From NCBI RefSeq assembly GCF_900169525.1, contig NZ_LT821239.1:310001-374000 (forward strand): 64,000 nucleotides of DNA, read 5' to 3'. The notes under the pieces are model-generated. The model ran no database searches, had not been told where the DNA came from, and saw only the letters and a program-made list of their open reading frames with translations. This DNA is from Corynebacterium pacaense. GTDB lineage: Bacteria; Actinomycetota; Actinomycetes; Mycobacteriales; Mycobacteriaceae. Made by a program: the position numbers and the translations under genes. Below are positions 7,801-31,271 of the stretch, one piece after another; the stretch's first letter is position 1; every line of letters starts with the position of its first letter.

Positions 7801-9713
7801 CCCGCCTGAGCGGGGAGAACGAATTGCCTCAATTTGCGCAGCACAACGCAATAGGGACCATCCCCGCCTGAGCGGGGAGAACCCGATGATTAAGGATGCT
7901 CAGGTGCAGGTCGCGGGACCATCCCCGCCTGAGCGGGGAGAACTCCGCTACGGACCCGTCAGCCCGGTATCGAACGGGACCATCCCCGCCTGAGCGGGGA
8001 GAACAACCTCAGCAAGTTCAGGGCTGGTGGGCAACAGGGACCATCCCCGCCTGAGCGGGGAGAACTCACGGTCTGCATATACGCATCCATCTCCTCAGGG
8101 ACCATCCCCGCCTGAGCGGGGAGAACCTGTCCTTCCGGGACACTGCCCCTCACCCCTGGGGACCATCCCCGCCTGAGCGGGGAGAACTCACCATCAGGAT
8201 CATTCGACAAATCTGAGCCCGGACCATCCCCGCCTGAGCGGGGAGAACACCACCGGCCTTGCCTGCATAAATCGCGGCGAGGGACCATCCCCGCCTGAGC
8301 GGGGAGAACCATTCGCGTCGTACCCTGAGCCTCGGCCCACGACGGACCATCCCCGCCTGAGCGGGGAGAACGCGACAAGCTGGCCTGCAAGGTAGGTGTC
8401 CACCGGACCATCCCCGCCTGAGCGGGGAGAACGTCGCCTTCGTGGGCGCCTGCAGAATCGCCTTCGGACCATCCCCGCCTGAGCGGGGAGAACCCAGGGC
8501 CGGATGTCGGTAGTCGGTATCCTCCGGGACCATCCCCGCCTGAGCGGGGAGAACGTGTAGTGATTGAAAAATTATGAGCAGTTCGGGGGACCATCCCCGC
8601 CTGAGCGGGGAGAACTTATTGATGAGGTGAATCGGACATCGGCGCGTGGGACCATCCCCGCCTGAGCGGGGAGAACGAGTCCGTGTAGTCGTGGTTCCAC
8701 ACGCGCAGGGGACCATCCCCGCCTGAGCGGGGAGAACGCGGGCCTGAAAGATTCTGTTTGACTACTTGTGGGACCATCCCCGCCTGAGCGGGGAGAACCC
8801 GTCATCGACAGTGACCCCGGCTCCGCCCGGGGGACCATCCCCGCCTGAGCGGGGAGAACCGTCGGTAAAGCTGCCGTCGTCGCGAAGACGCGGGACCATC
8901 CCCGCCTGAGCGGGGAGAACGCTCCGAGGGTCGGGTGCTGCTCCAAAATGATAGGACCATCCCCGCCTGAGCGGGGAGAACTGGTCGGATGACGGCTCGC
9001 GGTTTTCGGTGTCTGGACCATCCCCGCCTGAGCGGGGAGAACGCCTGCGTTTCAGCCAGCGCGTACGCGCCGCCCGGACCATCCCCGCCTGAGCGGGGAG
9101 AACGTACATGTACCCGTTGCGACGAGGCTGGGTGGCGGACCATCCCCGCCTGAGCGGGGAGAACGGTATCTCCCTGCGCCATGACTACTCATTCCCAGGA
9201 CCATCCCCGCCTGAGCGGGGAGAACGGTGCGCATCGGTGCGGGAGCGGGCTGCGGCGGGGACCATCCCCGCCTGAGCGGGGAGAACGGCCTCCCAGATCA
9301 CAGTGCAGGAGGGGTGCGAGGACCATCCCCGCCTGAGCGGGGAGAACAAACCGCCGCGCTGCTGGTTGCCCTGCTGTGGGGGACCATCCCCGCCTGAGCG
9401 GGGAGAACTGAAACACGTGTCACCACTTGCATAACATTTTGGGACCATCCCCGCCTGAGCGGGGAGAACTTCGAGAAGCATCTTGAGCAGCTGTTGTACT
9501 CGGGACCATCCCCGCCTGAGCGGGGAGAACCCATATCCGCGCTCGGTTGTTGACTTCCTCGACGGACCATCCCCGCCTGAGCGGGGAGAACTCGACGACC
9601 ACAGTCACCTGGCCGTCATGCTGCGGACCATCCCCGCCTGAGCGGGGAGAACGGCGGTGTTGCCGGCGGCGAGGGTGTCGCCGTCGGACCATCCCCGCCT
9701 GAGCGGGGAGAAC
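4804..9713 (-). CRISPR. Type I-E CRISPR array, distal block (81 repeats, 80 spacers)
   Basis: A 28-bp repeat recurs with a 61-bp period and 33-bp spacers. Two spacers appear to be one base longer, from the offset between first (4804) and last (9686) repeat starts. The repeat contains the palindrome CCCCGC-CTGA-GCGGGG. Read on the minus strand it has the layout of actinobacterial type I-E repeats, with a GTTCT lead, the stem and an ATGGTCC handle, so crRNAs run right to left. The repeat at 4865 has one change (position 4885), typical of the old, leader-distal end. Spacers 5259-5291 and 5320-5352 are identical. No cas leader lies at its right end (9714); the array is separated from the leader-proximal block by a 3.2-kb insert. 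Confidence 0.97.
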
Positions 9714-12960: not shown

Positions 12961-15900
12961 GGACCATCCCCGCCTGAGCGGGGAGAACGCACACCTGTCG
13001 AGGATTTGGGCGTTGATCAGAGGACCATCCCCGCCTGAGCGGGGAGAACAAATCATCCACCCTGCCGGTCCACACAAACCCGGGACCATCCCCGCCTGAG
13101 CGGGGAGAACGCCGCCGCGATGGCCGAGCTGGCTAAGGGCGGGGGACCATCCCCGCCTGAGCGGGGAGAACGTGCCGGAGGTATGCCCACCCCACGGGCC
13201 GCCGGGACCATCCCCGCCTGAGCGGGGAGAACCGATGGCCGGACTCGCACGATTTGCGACAGGTCGGACCATCCCCGCCTGAGCGGGGAGAACTTGAGCA
13301 GCGCATTCAATGTCGCCACCTCCGACGGACCATCCCCGCCTGAGCGGGGAGAACGACACGCCTACCTGCTTCACGGGCCAGTTGAACGGACCATCCCCGC
13401 CTGAGCGGGGAGAACGCCTCCGTCCGCGGCCCATAGCTGACAGTCACCGGACCATCCCCGCCTGAGCGGGGAGAACGCCAGCGCGTACGCGCCGCCCTTA
13501 CCATCGAGGGGACCATCCCCGCCTGAGCGGGGAGAACCGCATAAATCGTTGCCAGCTTATTGTCCTGACGGGACCATCCCCGCCTGAGCGGGGAGAACTT
13601 ATTGCGCAGCAGGTCGCGGCGTTGGATTATCGGACCATCCCCGCCTGAGCGGGGAGAACAATTTGGTGAGATTCCGGTTTCGTCCCCTGAACGGACCATC
13701 CCCGCCTGAGCGGGGAGAACTAAGCCGGTCGCTCCGCATGCGGGCAGGGTGTCGGACCATCCCCGCCTGAGCGGGGAGAACTCGAGTGTATCAGGTGGTT
13801 GTCTGTGTTGGGGGGGACCATCCCCGCCTGAGCGGGGAGAACTCAGTAGTCGACGCCGCCAGGCTCAGAGCATCCGGACCATCCCCGCCTGAGCGGGGAG
13901 AACCCGATCTCGGCGCGGGGGATCGTGCCCTTCGGGGGACCATCCCCGCCTGAGCGGGGAGAACATTCTACATGGACAAGTCAGGGCGCAAGTGGGGGGA
14001 CCATCCCCGCCTGAGCGGGGAGAACTGTTGACCAGGAGTGCGGGCTTAGACGGCTGTGGGACCATCCCCGCCTGAGCGGGGAGAACTGCGCCTTCAAACG
14101 CAGATCCCAGCCCCCCCGCGGACCATCCCCGCCTGAGCGGGGAGAACAATGTGACAGGCGACGCAGTGACGATTGATTCAGGACCATCCCCGCCTGAGCG
14201 GGGAGAACATGCTCACCGATCTAGGGCAAAGGTTCCAGGCGGGACCATCCCCGCCTGAGCGGGGAGAACATACCAATAAAGCCAGTGACCGCGTTGATTG
14301 CCGGACCATCCCCGCCTGAGCGGGGAGAACCGAAATCATCTCCTATCTGCTGGCCGCGACCTTGGACCATCCCCGCCTGAGCGGGGAGAACGAAGTCGAA
14401 GCGGAGGAGCCGAAGATCGAAGACGGACCATCCCCGCCTGAGCGGGGAGAACCGGCCCAGGCTGGGGTGTACAGCACCGAGCGAGGGACCATCCCCGCCT
14501 GAGCGGGGAGAACAATATTGGGCGGTTGACTGCGCCGGTGCGGGAAGGACCATCCCCGCCTGAGCGGGGAGAACCAGGCCCGGAACCTTGAAGGTGCTGA
14601 GAAGGGGGGACCATCCCCGCCTGAGCGGGGAGAACATACCAATGAAGCCAGTGACCGCGTTGATCGCCGGACCATCCCCGCCTGAGCGGGGAGAACCCGC
14701 TGGCACATCGAGGAGGCACCGCACGGTTGGGACCATCCCCGCCTGAGCGGGGAGAACTTGCTGGCCGCCGTCCTGAAAACAAACAACACGGGACCATCCC
14801 CGCCTGAGCGGGGAGAACACAGAGGCAGCGTGTCAGAGCGGAAACCCGGTGGGACCATCCCCGCCTGAGCGGGGAGAACAGTGCGCCGTGCTTGGCCTGC
14901 ATGGCCAGCCCCGGACCATCCCCGCCTGAGCGGGGAGAACCGCGCGCCTTCTTCCGGGTGATGAGTACCTCGGGGACCATCCCCGCCTGAGCGGGGAGAA
15001 CAGCTGCTGGATGCCCTTACGCACCTGATCAACCGGACCATCCCCGCCTGAGCGGGGAGAACAATCTGGACGGGGCATTTGTCGAGGATCTGTTCGGACC
15101 ATCCCCGCCTGAGCGGGGAGAACTGACTACTAGGGAAGGGTGGTTTTGTGGGCGTCGGACCATCCCCGCCTGAGCGGGGAGAACAAATCCGTGCACACGG
15201 TGAGGACAGGCCCGGTCGGACCATCCCCGCCTGAGCGGGGAGAACTAACATGGCTTTGGGAGAGTGTCGTCAGCCCGAGGACCATCCCCGCCTGAGCGGG
15301 GAGAACTCACACAGAAAGGGGCCGTAATGACCCAGCTGAGGACCATCCCCGCCTGAGCGGGGAGAACCGCGTGATTGTCCCCGGCCACCGTGGTGCCAGC
15401 GGACCATCCCCGCCTGAGCGGGGAGAACAAGGAGTGGTCGCCGGGTGAGGGCGATGATCCGGGACCATCCCCGCCTGAGCGGGGAGAACGGATACTGCTC
15501 TGGCCGAGTCGAAGACGCAAAGGGACCATCCCCGCCTGAGCGGGGAGAACCTCACCTTCCTTGAGGAGTGGGATCTCGCAAAGGGACCATCCCCGCCTGA
15601 GCGGGGAGAACCTGCTGACGCCGAGGTGGTGCTCGGAGTCGCCCGGACCATCCCCGCCTGAGCGGGGAGAACGGAACCGCCCGCCCCAGATCGGAGACTG
15701 TTGCCGGACCATCCCCGCCTGAGCGGGGAGAACAAGCACTGGCCAACCTCGTCAACGCCGGGCTGAGGACCATCCCCGCCTGAGCGGGGAGAACGAGTCC
15801 GATAGCGCTGCCATCAACACCACCACCGGACCATCCCCGCCTGAGCGGGGAGAACGTAGAGACTGACTCTTCCGGTATGAGCTCCATGCGGACCATCCCC

Positions 15901-18900
15901 GCCTGAGCGGGGAGAACGTCGGAGGATAACCGGGCACTCGTGTTTCCGCAGGACCATCCCCGCCTGAGCGGGGAGAACGCATCCAGGTACTCATCGCCAT
16001 ATCCCATGCGCGGACCATCCCCGCCTGAGCGGGGAGAACCTATTTTGCTGCACCCGCAGGCGCTGACGAAGCGGACCATCCCCGCCTGAGCGGGGAGAAC
16101 ATCCCACAGAGATTTGAAAACCTCCCACACGCCGGACCATCCCCGCCTGAGCGGGGAGAACATCACGCGGAGACACCAGCTGCCCTGTCGTACCGGACCA
16201 TCCCCGCCTGAGCGGGGAGAACTCGACGGACGAATTCATCGCCTCCTCGAGTTCCGGACCATCCCCGCCTGAGCGGGGAGAACCTCACCTTCCTTGAGGA
16301 GTGGGATCTCGCAAGGGGACCATCCCCGCCTGAGCGGGGAGAACATGGCACTTCTCATTGAGCTGACCGCCTACCAGGGACCATCCCCGCCTGAGCGGGG
16401 AGAACGGAAGGTTCTGGGTCGTCGTCATTCTGGGAAGGGGACCATCCCCGCCTGAGCGGGGAGAACCTGAGTAAAGATTCCGGCGTCGTGGATTTTCTGG
16501 GACCATCCCCGCCTGAGCGGGGAGAACCCCCGCGCCGAGATCGGGCATGGCACTTCGGATGGACCATCCCCGCCTGAGCGGGGAGAACACTACCGGGGTT
16601 CCACGCACGCCCCAGAGTGACGGACCATCCCCGCCTGAGCGGGGAGAACGTGACCGCGTTGATCGCCTTGAGGAGACCATCAGGACCATCCCCGCCTGAG
16701 CGGGGAGAACTGCAGCAGGTACCGGCTGCGATGCAGGATGAAGGGACCATCCCCGCCTGAGCGGGGAGAACTACCCACTACCAGGGCGGAACGCGGAGGT
16801 CAACGGACCATCCCCGCCTGAGCGGGGAGAACTCCGCGAACGATCGCCCACGCTTCGCAGCCTCAGGACCATCCCCGCCTGAGCGGGGAGAACGGTCCGG
16901 TAAGTACGTAAAAACTGTGCTGGCGCGGACCATCCCCGCCTGAGCGGGGAGAACGCTTTGGCGACTGCTGCGGGTGCAGTGGGGAAGGGACCATCCCCGC
17001 CTGAGCGGGGAGAACTACTAAAGGAGAATGAAAATTGTCTAATCCCACGGACCATCCCCGCCTGAGCGGGGAGAACGGTGCTGAAGCCTGCAGCTCAGGC
17101 GTGCCCGCCGGACCATCCCCGCCTGAGCGGGGAGAACGCGGTTTCCTCCGCGGACCGCTCAAAAGTCTTGGGACCATCCCCGCCTGAGCGGGGAGAACCT
17201 GTCAGCGATTTGCTCGCTGACCCTACGCTCAGGACCATCCCCGCCTGAGCGGGGAGAACTGGATCAGATCGCCGTGTTCAAGGATGCTTTGAGGACCATC
17301 CCCGCCTGAGCGGGGAGAACATCCGTCGCTTGTCGATGAGGGACCAGGTGTCCGGACCATCCCCGCCTGAGCGGGGAGAACATGGCATCTCTCATGCCAC
17401 CGCCACCGGGCCTGGGACCATCCCCGCCTGAGCGGGGAGAACACTACCGGGGTTCCACGCACGCCCCAGAGTGACGGACCATCCCCGCCTGAGCGGGGAG
17501 AACGCCAACGCGGATGCGCCGCCGCTGGCGGTGGCGGGACCATCCCCGCCTGAGCGGGGAGAACTAGGCCCCAGCGGACGCGCTGGCTATAAGCAGGGGA
17601 CCATCCCCGCCTGAGCGGGGAGAACACTTCGAATGCGGTGCCTGCGAACTCCTGGGCCGGACCATCCCCGCCTGAGCGGGGAGAACGTTGCGGGGATGGT
17701 GATCCTGTGGGCGTGGGGGGGACCATCCCCGCCTGAGTGGGGAGAACGATCACCGCCGCCGGCACCAGGAGACTCAAGACGGACCATCCCCGCCTGAGCG
17801 GGGAGAACCTCGCTGCCACCGAAGCAGCAGCTGTCAGAGGTGGACCATCCCCGCCTGAGCGGGGAGAACCGCATTTGGGCCGGGTGTCTTTCGAGAAGCA
17901 CCGGACCATCCCCGCCTGAGCGGGGAGAACAATGTTGTCGTCCAGGTCGATGATGCCGGCGCCGGACCATCCCCGCCTGAGCGGGGAGAACTCACGGAAT
18001 CGCAGCTCGCCGCCGCGATCGGGGGGACCATCCCCGCCTGAGCGGGGAGAACAAGGGCGAGCCTCAGGCATTGGTCGCGGCGACGGGACCATCCCCGCCT
18101 GAGCGGGGAGAACCACCGCGATCTGATTCGACGCCAGCGCATCTAGGGACCATCCCCGCCTGAGCGGGGAGAACACAGACCCCAAAGGCCCGGGTAGCGA
18201 TGAAACCGGACCATCCCCGCCTGAGCGGGGAGAACCCCGTGCTCGTGCCGAGAGCGTCAGCGTACGAGGACCATCCCCGCCTGAGCGGGGAGAACTTGCC
18301 GAACGCGACCGCAGAATCAGACGCCACGGGACCATCCCCGCCTGAGCGGGGAGAACGTGGAGATCTCACCGACGACGGGGCGAACTAAGGGACCATCCCC
18401 GCCTGAGCGGGGAGAACGGTCGTGGCTACGCATCGCAGGTATGGCAGGGGGGACCATCCCCGCCTGAGCGGGGAGAACTCCCCGGGCGTATGTGATTCAA
18501 TTGATGTTCCCTGGACCATCCCCGCCTGAGCGGGGAGAACGCGTCGGTGACCTTCTCTGACCCCGCAGTGGCCGGACCATCCCCGCCTGAGCGGGGAGAA
18601 CCGCTCCTGCATCGCCCACGAGCTCGGCCATGCAGGACCATCCCCGCCTGAGCGGGGAGAACAAGGTCATAGTCGATGCGGATCGCGCCGGGCTTGGACC
18701 ATCCCCGCCTGAGCGGGGAGAACCCCGCAGCCGTATGCCCCGCACCGCGGCGAACGGGACCATCCCCGCCTGAGCGGGGAGAACTCATCGGTGAATAACC
18801 CGCACTGGGAGGTGACCGGACCATCCCCGCCTGAGCGGGGAGAACAGCGTGATCTCGCGATGGCCCGCGTGCAGGCAGGGACCATCCCCGCCTGAGCGGG

Positions 18901-21776
18901 GAGAACACGAAGGAAAATCTCATCGCCGCGTGGGATGAGGGACCATCCCCGCCTGAGCGGGGAGAACCATCCTGGGCCTGCCAGTCCGTGGCGGCAGCCC
19001 GGACCATCCCCGCCTGAGCGGGGAGAACTGGTGGATTCCACGGAGGAGGTCCAGGCCGCTCGGACCACCCCCGCCTGAGCGGGGAGAACGAGGACGGAGA
19101 AGATACCTGGATCGGCGTGACCGGACCATCCCCGCCTGAGCGGGGAGAACCGGGGGCACCCGATGTCTCACGGCATCTGTACGGGACCATCCCCGCCTGA
19201 GCGGGGAGAACCTGCCTTTCGGCCCGCTCTTCGCCGCGTACTGCGGACCATCCCCGCCTGAGCGGGGAGAACCAGGCGATGAAATACTGGCGGGCCTGCT
19301 TACCCGGACCATCCCCGCCTGAGCGGGGAGAACCCAGGGTTTTCCCTTGCCTTGCCTTGCCTCGCCGGACCATCCCCGCCTGAGCGGGGAGAACGATGCA
19401 TACACGCATTTGAATATGGTGCGCGGGGGACCATCCCCGCCTGAGCGGGGAGAACACGCCCGAGTAAATGACATTAAGCTCACCGGGCGGACCATCCCCG
19501 CCTGAGCGGGGAGAACACGGTGCATCTCTTGCTCCTGAAGCAGGGATGGGGACCATCCCCGCCTGAGCGGGGAGAACGCGGGGAGGGGCTCGTCGTCCCA
19601 GCCGTCGCGGGGACCATCCCCGCCTGAGCGGGGAGAACACGCTGGCGCGGTGCACGAACTCGGATTCACCGGGACCATCCCCGCCTGAGCGGGGAGAACG
19701 TGCCACCGGGTAAGTAGCGGTTGGCAAGGTTGGGACCATCCCCGCCTGAGCGGGGAGAACGCCGGGGTCAGCACCGGCTCCGGGCGCGCGAGCTGGACCA
19801 TCCCCGCCTGAGCGGGGAGAACCCCACCGTCAGGATCTTCCCGTCGGTGTCCATCGGACCATCCCCGCCTGAGCGGGGAGAACTGCAGCCTGCCGAAGGT
19901 CACAACCCGGTCACCCGGACCATCCCCGCCTGAGCGGGGAGAACACCGCTTCGCAGCTGGCGGACGACTTCATGGCGGGACCATCCCCGCCTGAGCGGGG
20001 AGAACTGGGCATTCCTCGGCACTATCGGCGCACACCGGGGACCATCCCCGCCTGAGCGGGGAGAACCTGGTCCAGTCGCGGGTGTCGATGCAGAATCAGG
20101 GACCATCCCCGCCTGAGCGGGGAGAACGCGTCGGACACCTTCTCCGACCCCGCAGACGCCGGACCATCCCCGCCTGAGCGGGGAGAACTCGGAGCCATCG
20201 ATGCCTAAGGTCGCGAAGTGCGGACCATCCCCGCCTGAGCGGGGAGAACTCCTCAATCATCTTGTCGTACTTCTCTGTCGCCGGACCATCCCCGCCTGAG
20301 CGGGGAGAACTAGTGGGTACCACGGGAAGAACATGGCCGGTGAGGACCATCCCCGCCTGAGCGGGGAGAACAGTGGGTGCAGGACGTGGCGACTCAGCAT
20401 GTCGGGACCATCCCCGCCTGAGCGGGGAGAACCGTTTTCCCACACGACGAGGCGGGGCCTGATGGGGACCATCCCCGCCTGAGCGGGGAGAACATGTCAT
20501 CGAACTCGGCGTCCTTGATCGGGCGGGGACCATCCCCGCCTGAGCGGGGAGAACAATCACTACACATTTGCGCAGCTAGCTACCCACGGACCATCCCCGC
20601 CTGAGCGGGGAGAACGCAGGGTCGGCCATCAGCTCAGAGACGGTGTACGGACCATCCCCGCCTGAGCGGGGAGAACTCAAGCTCGCCCGGGACAAGGCTG
20701 ATGTTGCGGGGACCATCCCCGCCTGAGCGGGGAGAACACGCCCTCCTCGCCGCGTCCGCCCCGGAGGCTGGGACCATCCCCGCCTGAGCGGGGAGAACGC
20801 GGTGACTCAGTGGTGAGGGGCATTGAGGGCAGGGACCATCCCCGCCTGAGCGGGGAGAACTGAATCGGTGGCAGGTAAGTCGGTGACTTTGGGGGACCAT
20901 CCCCGCCTGAGCGGGGAGAACCCTGTCGCTGACATTCTGGAAGTGCCGGAGCTGGGACCATCCCCGCCTGAGCGGGGAGAACTAACCCTTGTACAGGGGA
21001 TTCTCGGAGGCGACGGGACCATCCCCGCCTGAGCGGGGAGAACCGTAAGACGCAGGCACGTGCTGCTGGAGGCTGGGGACCATCCCCGCCTGAGCGGGGA
21101 GAACGCGCGGGCCGCGGGTGGTGACCCTGATGCAGCGGGACCATCCCCGCCTGAGCGGGGAGAACTTGAAGCCCTCATCCAGCGGATCACGCAGGACCGG
21201 ACCATCCCCGCCTGAGCGGGGAGAACAGCGACTTATTGATCTGGGCTTAGCGTCGAATGGGACCATCCCCGCCTGAGCGGGGAGAACTGGATGGTGCGTC
21301 GCGACGCACTGAGGGGGAGGGGACCATCCCCGCCTGAGCGGGGAGAACAGCGGGCGCAGGATGCCGGCCTGTCCATGGAGGAGGACCATCCCCGCCTGAG
21401 CGGGGAGAACCGGCGCATAAGCATTGGCAGGCGATCGCGGATCGGACCATCCCCGCCTGAGCGGGGAGAACTCAATGGAAATCAGTTCGGTTACCAGCCG
21501 AACAGGACCATCCCCGCCTGAGCGGGGAGAACGTCGGTGTAGCTGGGGGGGTGTCGGGGTGGCGCGGACCATCCCCGCCTGAGCGGGGAGAACCGATATG
21601 TGAGTTCTGAATAGTGAAATTTGTTGGGACCATCCCCGCCTGAGCGGGGAGAACCGGATCGAAAATTCCTTGATCGCGTCACCGGTCGGACCATCCCCGC
21701 CTGAGCGGGGAGAACGACGGGGGCGGGGAGTCGGTCGGCGATGAACCCGGACCATCCCCGCCTGAGCGGGGAGAAC
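12961..21776 (-). CRISPR. Type I-E CRISPR array, leader-proximal block (145 repeats, 144 spacers)
   Basis: Same 28-bp repeat and 61-bp period as the distal block. First and last repeat starts (12961 and 21749) differ by 144 periods plus 4 nt, so a few spacers are one base longer. The array lies directly downstream of cas2. The leader is therefore at its right end and crRNAs are transcribed leftward, newest spacers near 21.7 kb. Variant repeats occur at 17720 (change at 17738) and 19062 (change at 19068). Spacers at 16589-16621 and 17443-17475 are identical, and several others are near-duplicates. Long open frames through the array are produced by the repeat and are not genes. Confidence 0.98.
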
Positions 21777-21841
21777 ACTAGTTAACCAGCGATAAAGCTC
21801 GGTCCAACGCTGATTTTACATCACTTTGCTTTATTACGTCG
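21777..21841 (-). promoter_or_regulatory. CRISPR leader and candidate array promoter
   Basis: Only 44 bp separate the cas2 stop from the first repeat, so the leader probably reaches into the cas2 3' end. On the minus strand TAAAAT (21813-21818) is a -10 candidate preceded by TG. Transcription would start about 35 nt before the first repeat. The inverted pair CAGCG/CGCTG inside it may form a small hairpin. Confidence 0.5.
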
Positions 21842-22177
21842 ACGTGCTGCTCGCTGCCTGGAGGCGGATGACCAACCGGCTTTCATCGACCCTTTGGCAG
21901 TGCTAACCGGGTGTCGCATTAGAGAGATGCCGTCGAAGTCAGCAACTTCCCACTGACTCCGGTGCACCCGGATTTCAAAACCCTGCTCGTTGCTCCTGGT
22001 TGGGAAGGTCATAATCGCCCGACCGCTCGTCAGCGTCGAAACGATCAACTCCCAGAGTTCATCCCTCACTCTGGCGGTTGGTCGCCCTACGTAGACTCCC
22101 GGGCTTACCTCCAGGAGCCAGCGGGTGAGGTGTCCCCTCAACTTTTCGGGTGGCGAGGACAGAATGACAGTGATCAT
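21821..22177 (-). CDS. cas2: CRISPR-associated endonuclease Cas2, type I-E
   Basis: Cas2 of the I-E (CT1978) subfamily, 118 aa; forms the Cas1-Cas2 integrase that inserts new spacers at the leader end. The typical opening MITVILSSPPEKLRGHLTRW, GVYVGRPTARVRDELWELI and the FEIRVHRSQWEVADFDGI region are present. A basic tail (RQRAARRRNKAK) extends past the core. The ATG overlaps the cas1 stop by 4 nt. It is the last gene of the cas operon and borders the array. Confidence 0.95.
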   Translation of the reverse strand: MITVILSSPPEKLRGHLTRWLLEVSPGVYVGRPTARVRDELWELIVSTLTSGRAIMTFPTRSNEQGFEIRVHRSQWEVADFDGISLMRHPVSTAKGSMKAGWSSASRQRAARRRNKAK

Positions 22178-23154
22178 GGAGTTTCGTGCCCCGTCGTGCC
22201 GGAGCCATCGTAGTTGGTGCCGCCTGCGACGCGTTTATCTCCACCGTCCCAGAGCTGGACGACGTCGGCCCAAAATTCTTCGGAGCTGATCTCCTCGTCA
22301 TCGATGAGCAAAGTTTTCAGGTCTGCGGCAATGCGTTCGGCGAGCCGTAGCTCACGAAACTCGTCACGCATGGCGCGGCGGGTGATAGCGCTGACATCGG
22401 AGATCTCAGCGCGACCACTTTCATTGAGATCGGCAATGATCCGGAAGGACACGGGAATGGAAATTTCAGCTTTGTATAGATCTGCAATGTCGTAAACAAA
22501 ACTCCGATCATGGCCCGTGTGGACAAATCCCAGGCCCGGGCTGCAGCCCAGCGCCGCGATCACTGAATGACAAAGCCCGTACAGGCAGGTGTGTGCCGAG
22601 GATAGGGCCTGGTTGATGGGATCGCCGGCGAGGAAATCCTCGGGGTCATAGATCCTTCGATTCCAGTCCACGCCGAACTCCTCCGAGTTCTCACGATAGA
22701 TTCGACGAACGCGTGCGCCCTCCTTTCCGCGCAGTTGCTGCATCGTCAGTTTGGAGGTGTCCTCGTTCGGAAAACGCATGTCATACATGGCACGGGCGAC
22801 AGCGAGCCTGGACCGGGTGTTACTGACTTTTTCAGCCTGTTTGAGCAGAAGTCGGTCGGATCGGGCGATCGAACGGCCGTGTGCGTAGTAGCGCACGCCT
22901 TCCTCGCCGACCCAAACCAGGCTGCATCCGGAGTCGGAGACGACTGATACGGCCTGATGGGTGAGCCGCGTTCCGGGTCCGAGCAGAAGGACGCTCAAAG
23001 CGGCGACAGGGACGTGTACCACGCCGTTATCATCGGTGGCGGTCAGGGCACCACCGTCCCTTCCAAGCGTGCAGTGCTCCAAATATAGAAAGCTTATTCG
23101 GTCGGTCGCCCGGCTGAGTTGCTTGGGCGTGGACGGTGGCATTCCTGATTGCAT
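22174..23154 (-). CDS. cas1: CRISPR-associated integrase Cas1, type I-E
   Basis: Metal-dependent integrase of the adaptation complex, 326 aa. Recognisable I-E Cas1 features are the N-terminal LYLEHCTLGRDGGALTATDD domain and the catalytic C-terminal domain with SSAHTCLYGLCHSVIAALG, GFVHTGHDRSFVYDIADLYK and EISIPVSF, which supply the conserved His and Asp. The start at 23154 (MQSGMPPSTPK) is preferred over an upstream ATG at 23190, since it lies just after the cas6e stop with a TTGGAG RBS. It overlaps cas2, so adaptation proteins are co-translated. Intact catalytic motifs, and near-identical spacers in the array, suggest it has been active. Confidence 0.95.
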   Translation of the reverse strand: MQSGMPPSTPKQLSRATDRISFLYLEHCTLGRDGGALTATDDNGVVHVPVAALSVLLLGPGTRLTHQAVSVVSDSGCSLVWVGEEGVRYYAHGRSIARSDRLLLKQAEKVSNTRSRLAVARAMYDMRFPNEDTSKLTMQQLRGKEGARVRRIYRENSEEFGVDWNRRIYDPEDFLAGDPINQALSSAHTCLYGLCHSVIAALGCSPGLGFVHTGHDRSFVYDIADLYKAEISIPVSFRIIADLNESGRAEISDVSAITRRAMRDEFRELRLAERIAADLKTLLIDDEEISSEEFWADVVQLWDGGDKRVAGGTNYDGSGTTGHETP

Positions 23155-23158
23155 GGTA

Positions 23159-23812
23159 TTACTCCAATGGTGCGAGAGTGAGAAGACCACATCCGTAGCC
23201 TCGGGCTTTGCCGATTCCGTTGGTGAGCGCTGAGCGCAGCTGATCGGCCGCGGTTACCTCGAGGCTTCCATCGAATGTGACCTGCTGGATAGTTACCTTG
23301 CGGCCTTTCCGGTTGAACACCAGCCGGGAGGATCTGCTAACTGATGCGGTCAGACCATCAGTCTCACTGTTGATTGAAGCTCCGAGTTGATCCTGTCTCT
23401 GCTCAAGCCACTCAAGCTGGTGTGCGGAGGAGACATGAGCTTTTCGACGCTTCACCCCCTCCTCGGTCACGGTGCGCACAGGGTTTGCGGTAAGACGAAA
23501 GGCATACCTTTGGCCTTTGACGATCCGGTTGAGCATCGGGGTGTAATCACTTGACTGCCAGGATCGCTCCTGCGACCAACCTGCCTGTTCCTGGAGGTGC
23601 TCGAGGGAAGGAACGGTAGGGCTGACAACGTACAGGGCCGTTGTCTCCATCGTCTGATCAATGCGCCACAGCACGCGCCCCTCATCGCTGCTTTCAGCTG
23701 CGGCATCTGGCGGGAAGGAAGCGAGAACCGCCGCGTGCATCTTCTGGGGACTGGCGAGCAGCTCGCGTGTCTGTCTACGTTGAGGGTTGAGGTACATCCT
23801 CGATAGATACAC
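23159..23812 (-). CDS. cas6e: CRISPR RNA endonuclease Cas6e (Cse3)
   Basis: RAMP-superfamily endoribonuclease of 217 aa that cuts the pre-crRNA at the base of each repeat stem and stays bound to the 3' hairpin in Cascade. The N-terminus (MYLSRMYLNPQRRQTRELLA) and the catalytic-His motif SPQKMHAAVLASFP are family typical. The glycine-rich C-terminal loop is GIGKARGYGCGLLTLAP. The GTG start at 23812 follows the cas5e stop directly (TAGGTG); the ATG at 23797 is an in-frame alternative. Confidence 0.94.
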   Translation of the reverse strand: MYLSRMYLNPQRRQTRELLASPQKMHAAVLASFPPDAAAESSDEGRVLWRIDQTMETTALYVVSPTVPSLEHLQEQAGWSQERSWQSSDYTPMLNRIVKGQRYAFRLTANPVRTVTEEGVKRRKAHVSSAHQLEWLEQRQDQLGASINSETDGLTASVSRSSRLVFNRKGRKVTIQQVTFDGSLEVTAADQLRSALTNGIGKARGYGCGLLTLAPLE

Positions 23813-25632
<1,820 letters not shown>

Positions 25633-25652: not shown

Positions 25653-26264
25653 TTAGGATTGTGTGTTGGTGGACTTGGACGGGGCGGTGTAGAGCTGACG
25701 CCCCCAATTGAGGCGAACTCTGTCTCTGGCTTCCGGAACGTGGAAGTCGTAGATTTGTGATGCGAGCTCTACGAAGTCGAGAGGAATCTTCTCTCCCCGA
25801 AGTTGGGTGATCAGACTCCTCAGGTGCCAGAGCAGCTCATCGACGGAATCCGAGGTGGAAAGAGCGTTGAAACGTCGGAGAATTGGAGATTCCTCATTGA
25901 ATCCGTTGGCGGCATCCTTGAGGATGATGTAGCGGCGGACCCCAGTTCCGAGGCCCTGCCCCTTCTGGTGCATAAACTCGCCTCTTCCCTGCTGCTGGAT
26001 GGCGAAAAGCGCGAGAGCGTTGTGCACCGCTGTTTCACCCCAGCTCGGGGTGTCTGTAACCCCGACCAGCTGCTGGGGGAGATCGCCCAGAGTGATTCCC
26101 CAGACATCGGGGATCGAACCGGGAGACTGGTTGACTGCACGGCGAAGCCTGGCAAGGGTGGCCTTGGATGATGAGGTCTCAGCCCTGATTCCCGCTTCGA
26201 GTTCATGGAGTTTGCGGGCCGTATGGTTGGCTACCGCCTGACGCTTAGATATCGTCTGGTTCAC
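25653..26264 (-). CDS. cse2: Cascade small subunit Cse2 (CasB)
   Basis: Mainly helical protein of 203 aa, two copies of which stabilise the R-loop and displaced strand. Recognisable parts are ARLRRAVNQSPGSIPDVWGI, WGETAVHNALALFAIQQQGR and RYIILKDAANGFNEESPILRRFNALSTS. Its ATG overlaps the cse1 3' end by 20 nt. Position between cse1 and cas7e is the standard I-E order. Confidence 0.92.
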   Translation of the reverse strand: MNQTISKRQAVANHTARKLHELEAGIRAETSSSKATLARLRRAVNQSPGSIPDVWGITLGDLPQQLVGVTDTPSWGETAVHNALALFAIQQQGRGEFMHQKGQGLGTGVRRYIILKDAANGFNEESPILRRFNALSTSDSVDELLWHLRSLITQLRGEKIPLDFVELASQIYDFHVPEARDRVRLNWGRQLYTAPSKSTNTQS

Positions 26265-27921
26265 TGTGTGCTCCTTCCTTTTCGTTTGATGGGGATCCGA
26301 GAATCTTCTTCAAGGAGCCGTCGAGGCGGTTCATGGCAACCGGACCGGTAATACGCGTGGATTCCCGGACCCTTCCTGCCCAGACACTTGGTGGTTGACT
26401 CGCGAGAATCTGCTCGGCCTTTTCTTTGGCCGTCGAACGCAGCCTTTGGTTCCAGTCAGCCAACAACTCATCGGGATTCTCCGCCCTGGACAGATCCGCA
26501 ATCCACTCTCGGAAAGGCAGATCAATTGAGAAGTAGAATGCGCGTTGCACCTCATCGGAGTCGACGGCGCCATCTCCTGAAACCGCAAAGGCGATATTGT
26601 TGTTGAACTGCCGGAGGGCATAGTCGACCTCCTCGGTTCTGCGAATTGCCACGCGGGCGATCGATCTGAGTGTCTCGCCCTCAGGGGAAAGCAGGAAAGC
26701 AGAGACGTGGAGAGAATCGGCGAGGACGTCAGCATAGCTGGAGCTTTTTGCACCGTAGAGCATCGAGACCATACGCAGGCGAATCGGGAATGATGGTTCC
26801 AGGTATCCCTGTGCAGACAGCGTTCCCACCCATTCGACGTTCAGGGCAGGCTTCGAGGTCGGTGCGCCATCGGCGTATTTGGATTTGGCCTTTGCAAAGT
26901 CCTGGTTGGGGAGGAGGTTGGGCAGTGAGCGCCATACCGCGCGACCGGGCTGGAGTGTTGCAGGCATATACCGGATGGCCTTGGCCTTGGTGGACTGCGG
27001 ATCACTAAATCGCCAGGGGGTCATTGTTTCAATCGAGTCCTGGATCGTGTATCCAATGGCATCGCCATTCGTAATCAGCACCGCTGTCACTCTGTCGCCA
27101 TCCCATCGAAGTCGCAAACGGCGTTGGGGCCAGGTGAGCAGCTCGACGGGACCTGCAGCCGCATTCTCCGCGGTGGTTTCGTATCCCGACCGTGCTCCGC
27201 TGGTCAGCTGCTCCTCCAACTCCCACACGGGAACATCGAACTCGGAACCAGCCTGTTCCCGTGCAGGAACATAATTCAGTAACAGAGTCTCGCGGAGATT
27301 GTGGCCCTCCAGGATGGTGCCGCCGAGCCACCCCGCCCATCCGATTCCGAGAGGGTAGCCACGCCCCCCCTTGACCCGGGAATCACCTACGGCACCGGAC
27401 TTGATACCGGAGTAGTCATAGGCATTGGCGTGAATCAGGAACTGTGCGGCCTGTGCCGGACTGAGCGACTCGATATCGGTGCGCATGGTGAAGAGATCGC
27501 CCACCTCACCGGAATCGGGAATGAAGATGTCCAGCGATTTCCACTCGTTTTTCGATGTATGGAGATCGGCTACCTGAAGGAACGGCCTTTCCGGATGGCG
27601 TAGATCGAAGCGGTCATGGACCTCGGTGAGGTACTCCTGCACATCGTCGTCAAAGACAGTCTCTTCATCCCATTTCTGCTGCCAGTGACGAAGGGCCCTC
27701 ATCTTGTTGCGAAGCACCGGGCTATCCCAGGAGCGATAGAGAATGGCAAGGAGAACCCTGAGAATCGCGAAGTTCACTGTTTCCAGTGAAGCTGCGAGTC
27801 GCTGGTATCGATCTGCGTTTTCGAGTAGTTGCCTGATTGAAACCGTGGACGGCGTGGAGTCGACGCTGAGGACCTCGATCCAGGGCTCATCGAGAAGATT
27901 GAAACTCTGATGTTCACTCAT
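26245..27921 (-). CDS. cse1: Cascade large subunit Cse1 (CasA)
   Basis: Large subunit of 558 aa that reads the PAM, opens the target and recruits Cas3. The N-terminus (FNLLDEPWIEVLSVDSTPST) is diagnostic. The PAM-sensing/zinc-region equivalents around HANAYDYSGIKSGAVGDSRVKGGRGYPLGIGWAG fall at about residues 158-192. The C-terminal four-helix region follows. Start ATG at 27921, 33 nt after the cas3 stop. The PAM cannot be deduced from the protein by eye; see the mini-CRISPR entry for an indirect hint of AAN. Confidence 0.94.
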   Translation of the reverse strand: MSEHQSFNLLDEPWIEVLSVDSTPSTVSIRQLLENADRYQRLAASLETVNFAILRVLLAILYRSWDSPVLRNKMRALRHWQQKWDEETVFDDDVQEYLTEVHDRFDLRHPERPFLQVADLHTSKNEWKSLDIFIPDSGEVGDLFTMRTDIESLSPAQAAQFLIHANAYDYSGIKSGAVGDSRVKGGRGYPLGIGWAGWLGGTILEGHNLRETLLLNYVPAREQAGSEFDVPVWELEEQLTSGARSGYETTAENAAAGPVELLTWPQRRLRLRWDGDRVTAVLITNGDAIGYTIQDSIETMTPWRFSDPQSTKAKAIRYMPATLQPGRAVWRSLPNLLPNQDFAKAKSKYADGAPTSKPALNVEWVGTLSAQGYLEPSFPIRLRMVSMLYGAKSSSYADVLADSLHVSAFLLSPEGETLRSIARVAIRRTEEVDYALRQFNNNIAFAVSGDGAVDSDEVQRAFYFSIDLPFREWIADLSRAENPDELLADWNQRLRSTAKEKAEQILASQPPSVWAGRVRESTRITGPVAMNRLDGSLKKILGSPSNEKEGAHSEPDDI

Positions 27922-27954: not shown

Positions 27955-30726
27955 TCATGTTTGGTTCTCCTTTCTTTCCATGAGCAGCCCGAGCTGCTCG
28001 TCGTAGGTGAAGATGTACCTCTCAACTTCCCGGGTGAGGTTTTCATCCAGAACCAGGGGGAGAGTTCCTTTCAACCACCTTGATTTCTGCCAGGATTCTT
28101 GGCCGTCCGCTTCCAGATTGCTAAGGTCAGAATCCGAGAGAGACCATTGCGGAAGACGAACCGTGCATGTAGCGAGGGTCCTGGCATGGGAGTACTCCAG
28201 TTCCATCATTCCGTCCACAGGAACGCCTTCAAGGGCATTGATATGGGGCAGGGCAAACAGCCGGCCACCGATGTTCTGTACCACCACAACCTCGAAGGAT
28301 TCATCGGCATCCCTGACTTGAGCGACGGTTGCCTGTTCATCGGCCAGGGAAGGCTGTCGGCTCCAACCCGCGAGGTTTCCGTTGAGGGGGACCGGGATCC
28401 GGCAGTGTTTGGCCCGTGCAATCTGATCCTGTTCGAATCTTCGTTCATCGGCACGTGCGGCGTCCCACTCCTCCTTCCACCCGGCGGGTGGGAACTGGTT
28501 GGTGTCATATGAGGCTGACACCAGACTTTCCACATCCGTAGGGGTGGTAATCCTTCCACCCGAGGCAAGCGAATGATCTGCAAGCACACGGATCGATCTG
28601 AGCAAAGGTGCATCACGATAAACCAGCCTGCTCCCGATCTGGATGTCGGGAGCCTGGCCTGAAGTGTCTGGAACACCAGCACCGAAGATGGTCAGGGTTG
28701 GTTTCTTCAGAGCATCGGGGCGGGAATCGTTGAGCATCTGGTGCCTATGGAGGCGACCGATTCTCTGGATGATGAGGTCGGTGGGCGCAATATCGGTGAT
28801 CATTGCATCAAAGTCGAGGTCAAGGCCCTGCTCAATGATCTGGGTGGATACGACAATGAGCTTCCTCGGGCGTTCTGAACCGGCCTTGCGTCCCAGTTGG
28901 CGTACCAGCTCGGATTCCATGTCCACCCGGTCGGTTGTAAGGAAGCGCGAATGCAACAGCACCGTGGCGTCTTCTCGGGCCACGATCAGCTGAAAAAGAG
29001 ACTGGGCGCGGGACACCGTCGAGCAAATGATTGCGATGCAGCCGCCATCGGAGGACAGATCGAGCGCACGTTCCGCCATCTCCTCAAGATCTCCCTCGGC
29101 AAAGGAAAAGTAGGTGGTGCGGGTCAGCCCGTCGTGATCTGGTGCCACCGTGCCGGTCTTGTAGCCATCGGTCCAGGTAACCCGTGGGTAGATCGGGCTC
29201 TTGTCAATGCGTGCGGCGGCTCCGCTGTAATGGGAGGCACCTTGGTGGTAGGCGTCGATAAGTTCCTTTCTGGTAGCGGGTGGCAGAGTGGCCGACAGTG
29301 CGATTACCGGTACGCCGTAGAAGCCGAGCCATTCGAGTAGACATGTGGTGTAGACCCGCATGTATGCATCGGCGGCGTGGATCTCGTCGATGATGACAAC
29401 TTTGCCGGCGAGACCCAGATGGCGGAGAACATTGTGCTTCGACTGGAGGACCGCAAAGAGAATCTGATCAATGGTTCCCACGGCCACGGAAGCGAGGAGG
29501 CCGGTCTTGCGTCCCTGGAACCATTGCGTTGCCTCCAGGGATGTTCGGTCGTTCGAGTCCTCATCGTCATAAACCCCGGAAATCGTCCCTGAGGTGATCG
29601 TACGGAACTCTTCGTTGAACTCGGATTTGCCGTGCGCCAGGACTGTGGAGACCGAGCCGGTGGTGCCCGAGTTAGAAAGCCATTCAGCAACGCGGCTGAA
29701 AATGGCATCTGAGGTCACGCGGGTTGGTTGGGCAAAGAAGAGTCCGTTGAAACCGAGCTTGTCTGCCGTGATGTCGGCGAGAGCCAAAGCCGCCTCGGTT
29801 TTTCCGGAACCTGTCTCGTTCTCAATAATGGTCAGTGACGGTCGGGTCTGGACATTTCCGAGCTCGATGACTGCTTTCTGGACGTTCCGCAAGGTGGCCG
29901 ACGGGGGCAGGGCGAAACGGTGCATGAAGCTCTCGGCGCTGACCGGGGATGGCCTCCAGTGTTCTCCCAGGTTGATTCGCGCCCACGCATCCTCGACGCG
30001 GTATTCCTGCACCTGCGGTTCACCGTTGGTGAGTGGAAAATTGTCCTCCGATGAGGCGATCCAGTCTGCGGAAATGAGAATCCCGGTGATCAGCGCCGCG
30101 GTCGCGGTGGATGCGATGTTGTCTTCCGAGTCCTCGCTGAAGACCGTGGCCAGATCCCCTATTGTTTGTTCATCGAGGTCGAGTTCCGCTGCAAGCGCAT
30201 CAAGCAGGGTGAAACGCGCATTCTGCCATTCCGGCCAGTTCCGGATTTCGCGCTTAAGGTCATCCGATGCAACGGATATTTCGCTGAAGGTGCCGTGGTG
30301 TCCGGCAATCACGGAGAACCAGAATTCACGATTAATCGGTGTGAGTGGTTTTCCGGTGCGGTTCTCCAACCACGCGAGGAGCGTATGGGCGCTGATGATG
30401 GAGTGAGGATTTGCGGACATCTCCTTTGACGTCACGTCTGAACGATAGCCGGCGTTGGAGACCCTGTAAGAGAGGGCGGGGACCTTCTGCTGGAAGTAGG
30501 GTGATGCCTTCCCCACATCGTGGGAGAGGGCTGCGAGCGTGAGAACTGCTTCCAGGGGTGCACCTTCCAGGACATCATCCAGAAAATCCCGGGTCGCTGG
30601 AGAAAGCAGAGAGTCAGCTACATCACAAATGACCGCGCTGATGTCACGGCTGTGCTGGAGTAGAGACATGAACTCGGAACTCTTCTTGTTGTGCTTCGCC
30701 CAGAACAGTTGTAGATCTACTGGCAA
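27955..30726 (-). CDS. cas3: CRISPR-associated helicase-nuclease Cas3 (type I-E)
   Basis: Effector nuclease-helicase of 923 aa, recruited by Cascade to shred targeted DNA 3'-5'. An N-terminal HD nuclease domain (HSRD near residue 25, ALSHDVGKASPYFQQK, VIAGHHGTFSE) is followed by a superfamily 2 helicase: Walker A ENETGSGKTEAALA, DEIHAADAYMR, LSATLPP and QRIGRLHRHQ. The frame opens further upstream, but I choose TTG at 30726 (product starting LPVDLQLFWAKH) because GGGAGG at 30733-30738 is an excellent RBS and the region upstream carries the promoter. All catalytic motifs look intact. First gene of the cas operon and probably the controlled step of interference. Confidence 0.93.
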   Translation of the reverse strand: MPVDLQLFWAKHNKKSSEFMSLLQHSRDISAVICDVADSLLSPATRDFLDDVLEGAPLEAVLTLAALSHDVGKASPYFQQKVPALSYRVSNAGYRSDVTSKEMSANPHSIISAHTLLAWLENRTGKPLTPINREFWFSVIAGHHGTFSEISVASDDLKREIRNWPEWQNARFTLLDALAAELDLDEQTIGDLATVFSEDSEDNIASTATAALITGILISADWIASSEDNFPLTNGEPQVQEYRVEDAWARINLGEHWRPSPVSAESFMHRFALPPSATLRNVQKAVIELGNVQTRPSLTIIENETGSGKTEAALALADITADKLGFNGLFFAQPTRVTSDAIFSRVAEWLSNSGTTGSVSTVLAHGKSEFNEEFRTITSGTISGVYDDEDSNDRTSLEATQWFQGRKTGLLASVAVGTIDQILFAVLQSKHNVLRHLGLAGKVVIIDEIHAADAYMRVYTTCLLEWLGFYGVPVIALSATLPPATRKELIDAYHQGASHYSGAAARIDKSPIYPRVTWTDGYKTGTVAPDHDGLTRTTYFSFAEGDLEEMAERALDLSSDGGCIAIICSTVSRAQSLFQLIVAREDATVLLHSRFLTTDRVDMESELVRQLGRKAGSERPRKLIVVSTQIIEQGLDLDFDAMITDIAPTDLIIQRIGRLHRHQMLNDSRPDALKKPTLTIFGAGVPDTSGQAPDIQIGSRLVYRDAPLLRSIRVLADHSLASGGRITTPTDVESLVSASYDTNQFPPAGWKEEWDAARADERRFEQDQIARAKHCRIPVPLNGNLAGWSRQPSLADEQATVAQVRDADESFEVVVVQNIGGRLFALPHINALEGVPVDGMMELEYSHARTLATCTVRLPQWSLSDSDLSNLEADGQESWQKSRWLKGTLPLVLDENLTREVERYIFTYDEQLGLLMERKENQT

Positions 30727-30750
30727 TTGACACCTCCCAAAGAAACTTTG

Positions 30751-30785
30751 AATATTGAACTTCCTAGACAGTAGATCATTGTATA
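30751..30785. promoter_or_regulatory. cas3 promoter and candidate target of the mini-CRISPR RNA
   Basis: TACAAT on the minus strand (30778-30783) is a plausible -10 for the cas operon, with transcription starting near 30771. On the plus strand AA at 30751-30752 and T at 30753 precede ATTGAACTTCC (30754-30764), identical to 11 consecutive guide positions of the pseudo-spacer at 30959-30979. A full 32-nt Cascade footprint from 30754 would reach 30785 and cover the -10. Confidence 0.55.
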
Positions 30786-30832
30786 TCGAACCCCGCTGAT
30801 TCGCGGTTGATCTTCTCAACTGCGGTGGACAT
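30776..30832 (-). CDS. Possible 18-codon leader ORF upstream of cas3
   Basis: A minus-strand ATG at 30832 opens MSTAVEKINRESAGFDIQ and ends at TGA 30776-30778. AGGAG at 30844-30848 lies 11 nt upstream, slightly far for an RBS. The ORF overlaps the predicted cas3 -10, so it would belong to a different transcript. In CreTA modules a tiny toxin ORF/RNA sits beside the mini-CRISPR; this one has no obvious rare-codon run. Weak evidence, recorded for its position. Confidence 0.2.
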   Translation of the reverse strand: MSTAVEKINRESAGFDIQ

Positions 30833-30884: not shown

Positions 30885-30930
30885 AAACACCCCCGTCTGC
30901 TCGAATTCTTTCGAACAGACGGGGGTGTTT
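30885..30930 (-). terminator. Strong terminator closing the mini-CRISPR transcript
   Basis: A perfect 15-bp inverted repeat (30885-30899 with 30916-30930) with a 16-nt loop. On the minus strand the arm ends TGTTTTCC; on the plus strand it ends TGTTTAA, so it may act in both directions. It directly follows the second degenerate repeat and isolates cas3 from upstream transcription. Confidence 0.85.
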
Positions 30931-31007
30931 AATGTAGCCCCACCTGAGTGGGGAGAAGATCCACCTTGGAAGTTCAATGGGATCATCCCCGGTGTCTGCG
31001 GGGAGGG
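30885..31007 (-). ncRNA. Degenerate mini-CRISPR: candidate Cas-regulating (CreR/CreA-like) RNA
   Basis: On the minus strand a pseudo-repeat (31007-30980) ends in GGGGATGATCC, one base from the canonical GGGGATGGTCC handle end. It is followed by a 21-nt pseudo-spacer (30979-30959) and a second pseudo-repeat (30958-30931). In the second, the stem reads CCCCAC-GTGGGG instead of CCCCGC-GCGGGG: two compensating changes that keep the hairpin. A terminator follows at once. The layout repeat-short spacer-repeat-terminator beside a cas operon matches the CreA/CreR class of degenerate CRISPR RNAs that guide Cascade to promoters. The guide matches the cas3 leader over 11 nt beside an AA. Structure is seen directly; function is inferred. 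A -10-like TACTAA lies near 31028-31033. Confidence 0.65.
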
Positions 31008-31271
31008 AAGGGTAACCCACCCCCAAACTTAGTACATCGAAGGTCCAATAAAGTGGGCGCAACAAGGTTGGCAGGGGTGTCCTGAGGTCACCTCCGAATA
31101 GACGGAGCGCCCATTTGTGTGGCCAACCTGTTTCCTTCCCCGGCACAGCTGCAGGGGAATCCAGGGGAGACCGACCGTTGACACGGCCACCAACCTTCTT
31201 CGGTCCTTCCACACCCTGTGGTCAAGAGAAGTCGGGTTCCTCACATATAGATGAAGTGCTGAATCACAGTG

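Follow-up and report, generated by a model that had tools for sequence, protein, structure and literature searches.

A crRNA-like element beside the type I-E cas operon of Corynebacterium pacaense that probably represses this operon, and its counterparts in the genus

Introduction

CreR is a crRNA-like RNA that is encoded beside cas genes and has a limited match to a cas promoter, and it has been found in CRISPR-Cas systems of types I-B, I-E and V-A (Liu et al. 2023, as summarised in passages of PMC12737573 and PMC13131331). The same passages describe CreR as a sensor of the crRNA level and of anti-CRISPRs, and CreRs of type I-E are already published, as cited in a passage of PMC13131331. The element that is described here resembles CreR in that it is predicted to give a crRNA-like RNA, adjoins cas genes and has a limited match at a presumed cas promoter. 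It differs, going by the descriptions of CreR, in that one genus was followed and its class sampled, in that two guide lengths 12 nt apart occur, and in that the promoter region of either cas3 or cas8e is targeted.

The second related system is CreTA, the antitoxin RNA of which, CreA, is known from type I-B (PMC8501985, in part) and type I-F (PMC10097628, in part). As in CreTA, at least in the section of PMC8501985 that describes it, there are degenerate repeats, a seed of positions 1-5 and 7-11 with positions 6 and 12 unpaired, a PAM, and a target in a promoter. The target here is the cas operon, however, and no toxin gene is seen. In work ascribed to Workman et al. 2021, a natural single-guide RNA is said to autoregulate Cas9. 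That RNA is similar in that cas genes are repressed by the effector that they encode, through a guide that matches in part, but the class, the effector and the RNA are others. Finally, shortened guides shift type I-B effectors from cutting to repression, according to parts of PMC10989794 and PMC10551041, but those truncated crRNAs were engineered, whereas the short guides described here are natural, conserved and of type I-E.

Among the literature matches listed, the scope of which did not extend to the likeliest sources (Liu 2023 and Shmakov 2023), no report was recognised of natural guides shortened by 12 nt or of a CreR in this genus. The kind of element is already known; added here are its survey through the genus, its two guide lengths and its change of target promoter.

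The type I-E locus

The window, i.e. the whole analysed stretch of 64,000 nucleotides (contig NZ_LT821239.1, positions 310,001 to 374,000), contains a complete type I-E cas gene set according to family matches, and thereby the cognate effector genes that belong to a CreR. All genes are on the minus strand: cas3 (27955-30726; TIGR01587, TIGR01596) is followed after 33 nt by cas8e, also named cse1 (26245-27921; TIGR02547), and then by cse2 (25653-26264; TIGR02548), cas7e (24511-25632; TIGR01869), cas5e (23813-24511; TIGR01868), cas6e (23159-23812; TIGR01907), which encodes the predicted processor of the element RNA, and cas1e and cas2e (21821-23190; TIGR03638, TIGR01873). A CRISPR array on the same strand (12961-21776) adjoins the cas genes and is the presumed source of competing crRNAs. 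Its repeat, in crRNA sense and thus on the minus strand, is GTTCTCCCCGCTCAGGCGGGGATGGTCC, and as 226 copies with at most 5 mismatches are present in two arrays, a single CreR would compete with more than 220 crRNAs. The two arrays (4804-9713 and 12961-21776) are both very long, have the repeat in common and lie 3.2 kb apart. One array spacer matches a phage at 31 of 33 positions, the match being preceded by AA and then G; this was the sole match against phage records.

The element and its target site in the window

Upstream of cas3, the minus strand between 30885 and 31008 reads as a degenerate repeat, a 20-nt guide, a second repeat and a hairpin, which amounts to a mini-CRISPR with two degenerate repeats adjoining the cas operon, as is typical of CreR. 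The first repeat, R1 (30979-31008), has a 5-bp stem (31003-30999 with 30991-30987), followed by the 8-nt 5' handle ATGATCCC at 30986-30979. Next comes the guide (30959-30978) with the seed ATTGAACTTCC (30978-30968), and then the second repeat, R2 (30931-30958), which has lost the tag but has a perfect 6-bp stem, CCCCAC/GTGGGG. The preliminary description was right about two diverged repeats on the cas-coding strand, and also about a stem kept by compensation, which in R2 involves one compensated pair; the pseudo-spacer, to which it had assigned 21 nt, is 20 nt long once the 8-nt tag is counted. The claimed terminator was found as a terminator-like, nearly symmetric hairpin of 21 pairs (30885-30930, minus strand), and it is probably mostly this hairpin that causes the folding z of -7.9 of the whole element. 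In ungapped comparisons with the array repeat, R2 differs at 9 and the R1 region at 13 of 28 positions, and as the spacing is also 12 nt below that of the array, the element does not qualify as a CRISPR array.

The first 11 guide bases recur exactly on the plus strand at 30754-30764, directly behind the PAM AAT at 30751-30753 (together 30751-30764), and positions 13 and 14 match as well. The match next to the AA at 30751-30752 that the preliminary description had pointed out is exact, and it exceeds chance. PAM and seed together, AANATTGANCTTCC, occur once in the 3.03-Mb genome, where about 0.4 occurrences are expected by an estimate for 12 fixed bases, and in the upstream regions of the 95 other loci described below the window guide reaches 9/11 at best beside AA. 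What decides in favour of the window match is the comparative test across the loci of the genus, i.e. a comparison of sequences.

The true start of cas3 is probably the TTG at 30726-30724 behind the proposed ribosome site GGGAGGTG at 30738-30731 (30724-30738 on the minus strand, by sequence reading), rather than the ORF start at 30819, and this places the target upstream of the gene instead of within it. The target is 27 nt from the proposed start, too short a distance to hold a separate toxin gene. The sequence TACAAT at 30778-30783 (minus strand, found by eye) is the presumed -10 element of the cas3 promoter; on the minus strand, a strict sigma-70 scan detected a promoter neither for cas3 nor for the element. 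A 20-nt protospacer would extend from 30754 to 30773, away from cas3, and across the presumed transcription start. The site thus combines a seed match at positions 1-5 and 7-11 with a PAM at the putative cas promoter, as in CreR. Just upstream of the presumed -10 element, at 30788-30808, there is an imperfect inverted repeat, AACCGC...GCGGGGTT, which may be an operator of another regulator.

It is very likely that this two-repeat mini-CRISPR is a CreR, the crRNA-like RNA of which is predicted to load into type I-E Cascade and would likely repress the promoter of the cas3-led operon of the locus by means of the 11-base seed next to the AA PAM.

Elements and targets across the genus

A Cas3 search of 242 genomes of the genus gave a match at E 0.001 or better in 112 genomes, from which 97 loci were taken, one per genome, and 15 genomes with weak Cas3 matches (E 2e-47 or weaker) were left out. 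Locus L052 was set aside because its stretch contains a run of N, and 96 loci remained. An early list of 44 loci still included L052, and six chance or array-derived rows were discarded from that list by eye (L030, L041, the first rows of L004, L031 and L046, and the second row of L029). Upstream distances refer to the conserved WAK motif of cas3 and not to the annotated start. The loci are related to one another, and all counts below are therefore not counts of independent events.

A target-blind caller, designed after the first loci had been viewed, searched for an R1 hairpin, an ATGNNCC tag and an R2 stem 12-48 nt further on, and it returned such a candidate in 55/96 loci. In 47 of these 55, the guide matches at least 9/10 seed positions (position 6 ignored) within 420 nt upstream of cas3, compared to 50/2970 with swapped pairings. 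When the PAM requirement was dropped, there were still 47 loci, all of them with AA at -3 and -2 (AAC in 39, AAT in 5, AAG in 2 and AAA in 1), and the flanks of the eight low-scoring candidates were mixed. Four of the low scorers (L012, L017, L103, L104) have a 9-10/10 match some 2.8 kb further on, at the junction of cas3 and cas8e, and such a match is also found in L015, which the target-blind caller had missed. The seed matches of L030 and L116 reach 8/10 at most, the candidate of L035 resembles an ordinary array unit, and for that of L125 no seed match was found.

A wider caller, which admitted an R2 spacing of 24-26 or 36-38, required the PAM AA and allowed targets in the cas3 upstream zone as well as in the cas3-cas8e gap, found element and target in 67/96 loci. 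For this, 182 candidates were tested, shuffled guides gave 10/1820, and a second row of L117 was an array self-match and not counted. The PAM of the window, AAT, is a minority form (7/67 loci). Together with the seed match in the window, these 67/96 loci with a match to their own cluster suggest that the element is likely a built-in brake on the production of the defence system, and they show how common crRNA-like self-regulation may be in one genus. The wider caller gave no element with target in 29/96 loci, among which L006, L062 and L125 run to the end of their contigs, cas3 is incomplete in L124, other subtypes are the probable assignment of L069-L072, L030 and L116 are the two with seed matches of 8/10, and in 19 the element seems to be absent or to have been missed.

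Position of element and target

The target lies upstream of cas3 in 58/67 loci and between cas3 and cas8e in 9/67, and in 4 of these 9 the element is also in that gap. In 52 of the 58 loci with a cas3 target, the target is on the other strand and further upstream, between -339 and -82 relative to the WAK codon, and in the remaining 6 it is at -52 to -41. The cas3-cas8e gap measures -17 to 187 nt in 57 loci with a cas3 target and 72 to 351 nt in the 9 loci with a cas8e target (p = 0.0014, uncorrected for kinship, with gaps taken from the ORF calls of a script, some of which are doubtful). That the choice of target follows this gap is only partly borne out, as the ranges overlap. In L012, L015, L017, L103 and L104, the element is upstream of cas3 and the target at the cas3-cas8e junction, some 3 kb away, and in L012 and L015 the target site starts no more than a few bases from the stop codon of cas3.

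These positions bear on two other explanations. The guide might repress a toxin gene and thereby make Cascade addictive, as CreA does, and the layout with two degenerate repeats, a seed of 1-5 and 7-11 and a promoter target is indeed common to both (PMC8501985, in the section on CreA). But with 27 nt from the target to the proposed cas3 start in the window, without a toxin gene, and with targets in front of cas3 in 58 and between cas3 and cas8e in 9 of 67 loci, a function as such an antitoxin is very improbable. Nor is the element easily seen as a leader or attenuator that acts in cis on the cas transcript instead of as a guide that acts in trans: in the window it is located upstream on the cas strand and ends in a strong hairpin, which would suit an attenuator, but in 51/67 loci it is on the strand opposite the cas genes and cannot be a simple leader there, and in 5 loci it is about 3 kb from the target, on the far side of cas3, which makes this explanation highly improbable.

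Covariation of guides, targets and repeats

Among the 67 loci, 56 guide seeds and 59 target seeds can be told apart. Near relatives have one-base changes in guide and target alike, for example at position 2 (L020/L022) and at position 5 (L022/L110), and there are also a few uncompensated changes among them, such as in L031/L050 and L042/L117. Loss of the seed match in relatives that keep the repeats had been named as the result that would speak against a regulatory RNA, and the opposite is seen between species, since 67/96 loci retain both the element and its match, and the seeds differ among them (56 in all). The genus-wide covariation of guide and target thus supports the initial proposal of a CreA/CreR-like RNA that is aimed at the cas3-led operon.

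The repeats are also conserved in their roles. Of the R2 repeats in the 67 loci, 55 show the canonical stem and none carries the tag; that R1 carries the tag follows from the construction of the search. The R1 stems co-vary, with 348/402 cells paired versus a maximum of 325 in 2000 shuffles when the loop was re-chosen, and with 307 versus a maximum of 288 in a control with a fixed loop. A kept handle in R1 and a kept hairpin in R2 is the pattern that Cas6e processing would need. A hairpin of at least 7 bp within 70 nt after R2 is present in 23/67 loci, i.e. the terminator-like hairpin is not general. Upstream of the tag, the motif TANNNT peaks at -30 (20 hits in the 67 loci) and at -42 (18 hits), with a mean of 4.3 per 3-nt bin, and peaks at such fixed places upstream of R1 are in line with a promoter of the element's own. 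Upstream of cas3 in L017, R2 is followed by a further full spacer and a canonical repeat, as in a three-repeat mini-CRISPR.

A decaying leftover of a CRISPR array with an inherited or accidental seed match could account for the divergence of R1 and R2 from the array repeat (13 and 9 of 28 positions). It would not account for a layout that is kept in 67/96 loci with co-varying seeds, for the co-varying R1 stems, or for a short spacing of 24-26 that occurs in 0/89 other repeat-tag-repeat units; the covariation at the sequence level already contradicts decay, and there is hardly any likelihood left for it.

The extent of the match can be examined in the 47 target-blind loci, in which the selection threshold inflates the counts at positions 1-11, with the exception of 6, and leaves those at 12-16 unaffected. 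Matches at positions 6 and 12 occur in 16/47 and 11/47 loci, with 19.2 and 7.3 expected if these positions are free, whereas position 13 matches in 42 (18.1 expected), position 14 in 31 (13.4), position 15 in 25 (13.2) and position 16 in 22 (11.8). From position 17 on (11/47, 9.0 expected), matching is near background, and the complementarity is thus limited and not of full length, as in CreR. Free positions 6 and 12 with kept positions 13-16 are the footprint expected of Cascade, and CreA of type I-B has the corresponding seed of 1-5 and 7-11 with 6 and 12 unpaired (PMC8501985, in the section cited above). The loci thereby give natural sequence evidence on how Cascade may read DNA, namely with AA as the PAM, with a seed of positions 1-5 and 7-11 beside which 6 and 12 are free, and with pairing to about position 16. 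Position 18 matches below expectation (6/47 versus 13.5), and 12/22 full-length guides match at position 20 and likewise 12/22 at position 21; kinship may explain both.

Proposed function

The CreR reading, which is preferred here, implies that the RNA is transcribed from a promoter immediately in front of R1 and then cut by Cas6e, by which it would receive its 5' handle from R1 and its 3' hairpin from R2. Loaded with this RNA, Cascade would bind over the start of cas transcription and, as pairing ends at about position 14-16, would repress the cas promoter and not cleave it. By analogy with published CreRs, ordinary crRNAs or anti-CRISPRs that divert Cascade would release the brake, and if anti-CRISPRs do so, the loci would also sense phages that carry anti-CRISPRs.

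Two guide lengths

In the target-blind set, 34 loci have a distance of 24-26 between the handle and the R2 stem, and another 21, which include the array unit of L035, have 36-37; no other distance between 12 and 48 occurs. The modes of this distance are 25 and 37 nt, and the short class is thus 12 nt short. The 89 other repeat-tag-repeat units of those loci, mostly array units, measure 37 or 38, and none 24-26. Evidence for the two classes comes from the target-blind caller (12-48), since the wider caller admits just 24-26 and 36-38 and is not independent in this respect. A quick Cas3 tree was made with 63 of these 67 loci, and some of its long branches were flagged; on it the length class needs seven changes, at least 6 of which are backed by well-supported branches.

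In Cascade, each Cas7 covers 6 nt of the guide, and a guide shortened by 12 nt would therefore drop two Cas7 and one Cse2. The window guide, which is 12 nt shorter than ordinary crRNA guides, would accordingly give a smaller Cascade. It is conceivable, with a likelihood that we place a little under even, that the brake is a machine physically distinct from the immune complex: the regulatory guide, which in the majority of these bacteria is 12 nt shorter than the array crRNAs, would build a mini-Cascade that lacks two Cas7 and one Cse2 and that occupies the promoter but cannot call in Cas3, the genus would have switched at least 6 times between a small and a full-size repressor with no other lengths, and the repressor would have been re-aimed at whichever promoter drives the Cascade genes.

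Engineered type I-B systems offer a comparison. In one of them, guides of up to 24 nt repress without interference or priming, with weak priming at 24 nt on another target (PMC10989794, in part), and in another, guides of up to 26 nt repress instead of cutting (PMC10551041, in part). The PAM-like AA and the perfect seed might suggest that in certain conditions the guide brings about true cleavage of the cas promoter or primed adaptation there, but this is extremely unlikely in view of the background-level pairing beyond position 16 and of those type I-B spacers of up to 24 nt, with their weak priming on another target at most. For CreR-like repression in type I-E, the two guide lengths pose the question whether the size of the effector, as set by the guide, separates repression from cutting.

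Elements outside the genus

Outside the genus, 39 loci were surveyed, 11 from other genera of the family and 28 of the best matches in 394 genomes of the class. A credible element with target was found in 8/39 (0.5 expected by shuffling over 340 candidates); 11 rows had been returned, 3 of which were dropped, i.e. L083 with an odd spacing of 19, and L129 and the first row of L133 with array-like repeats. The spacings in the 8 loci are 25, 25, 26, 26, 28, 37, 37 and 38, and the 28 of L085 is an exception to the two-class rule that lies outside the genus. In L085, at -798 and -654 from cas3, the element has a 23-nt guide and its target is some 650 nt upstream of cas3, possibly in the promoter of another gene, which might be a CreTA-like arrangement.
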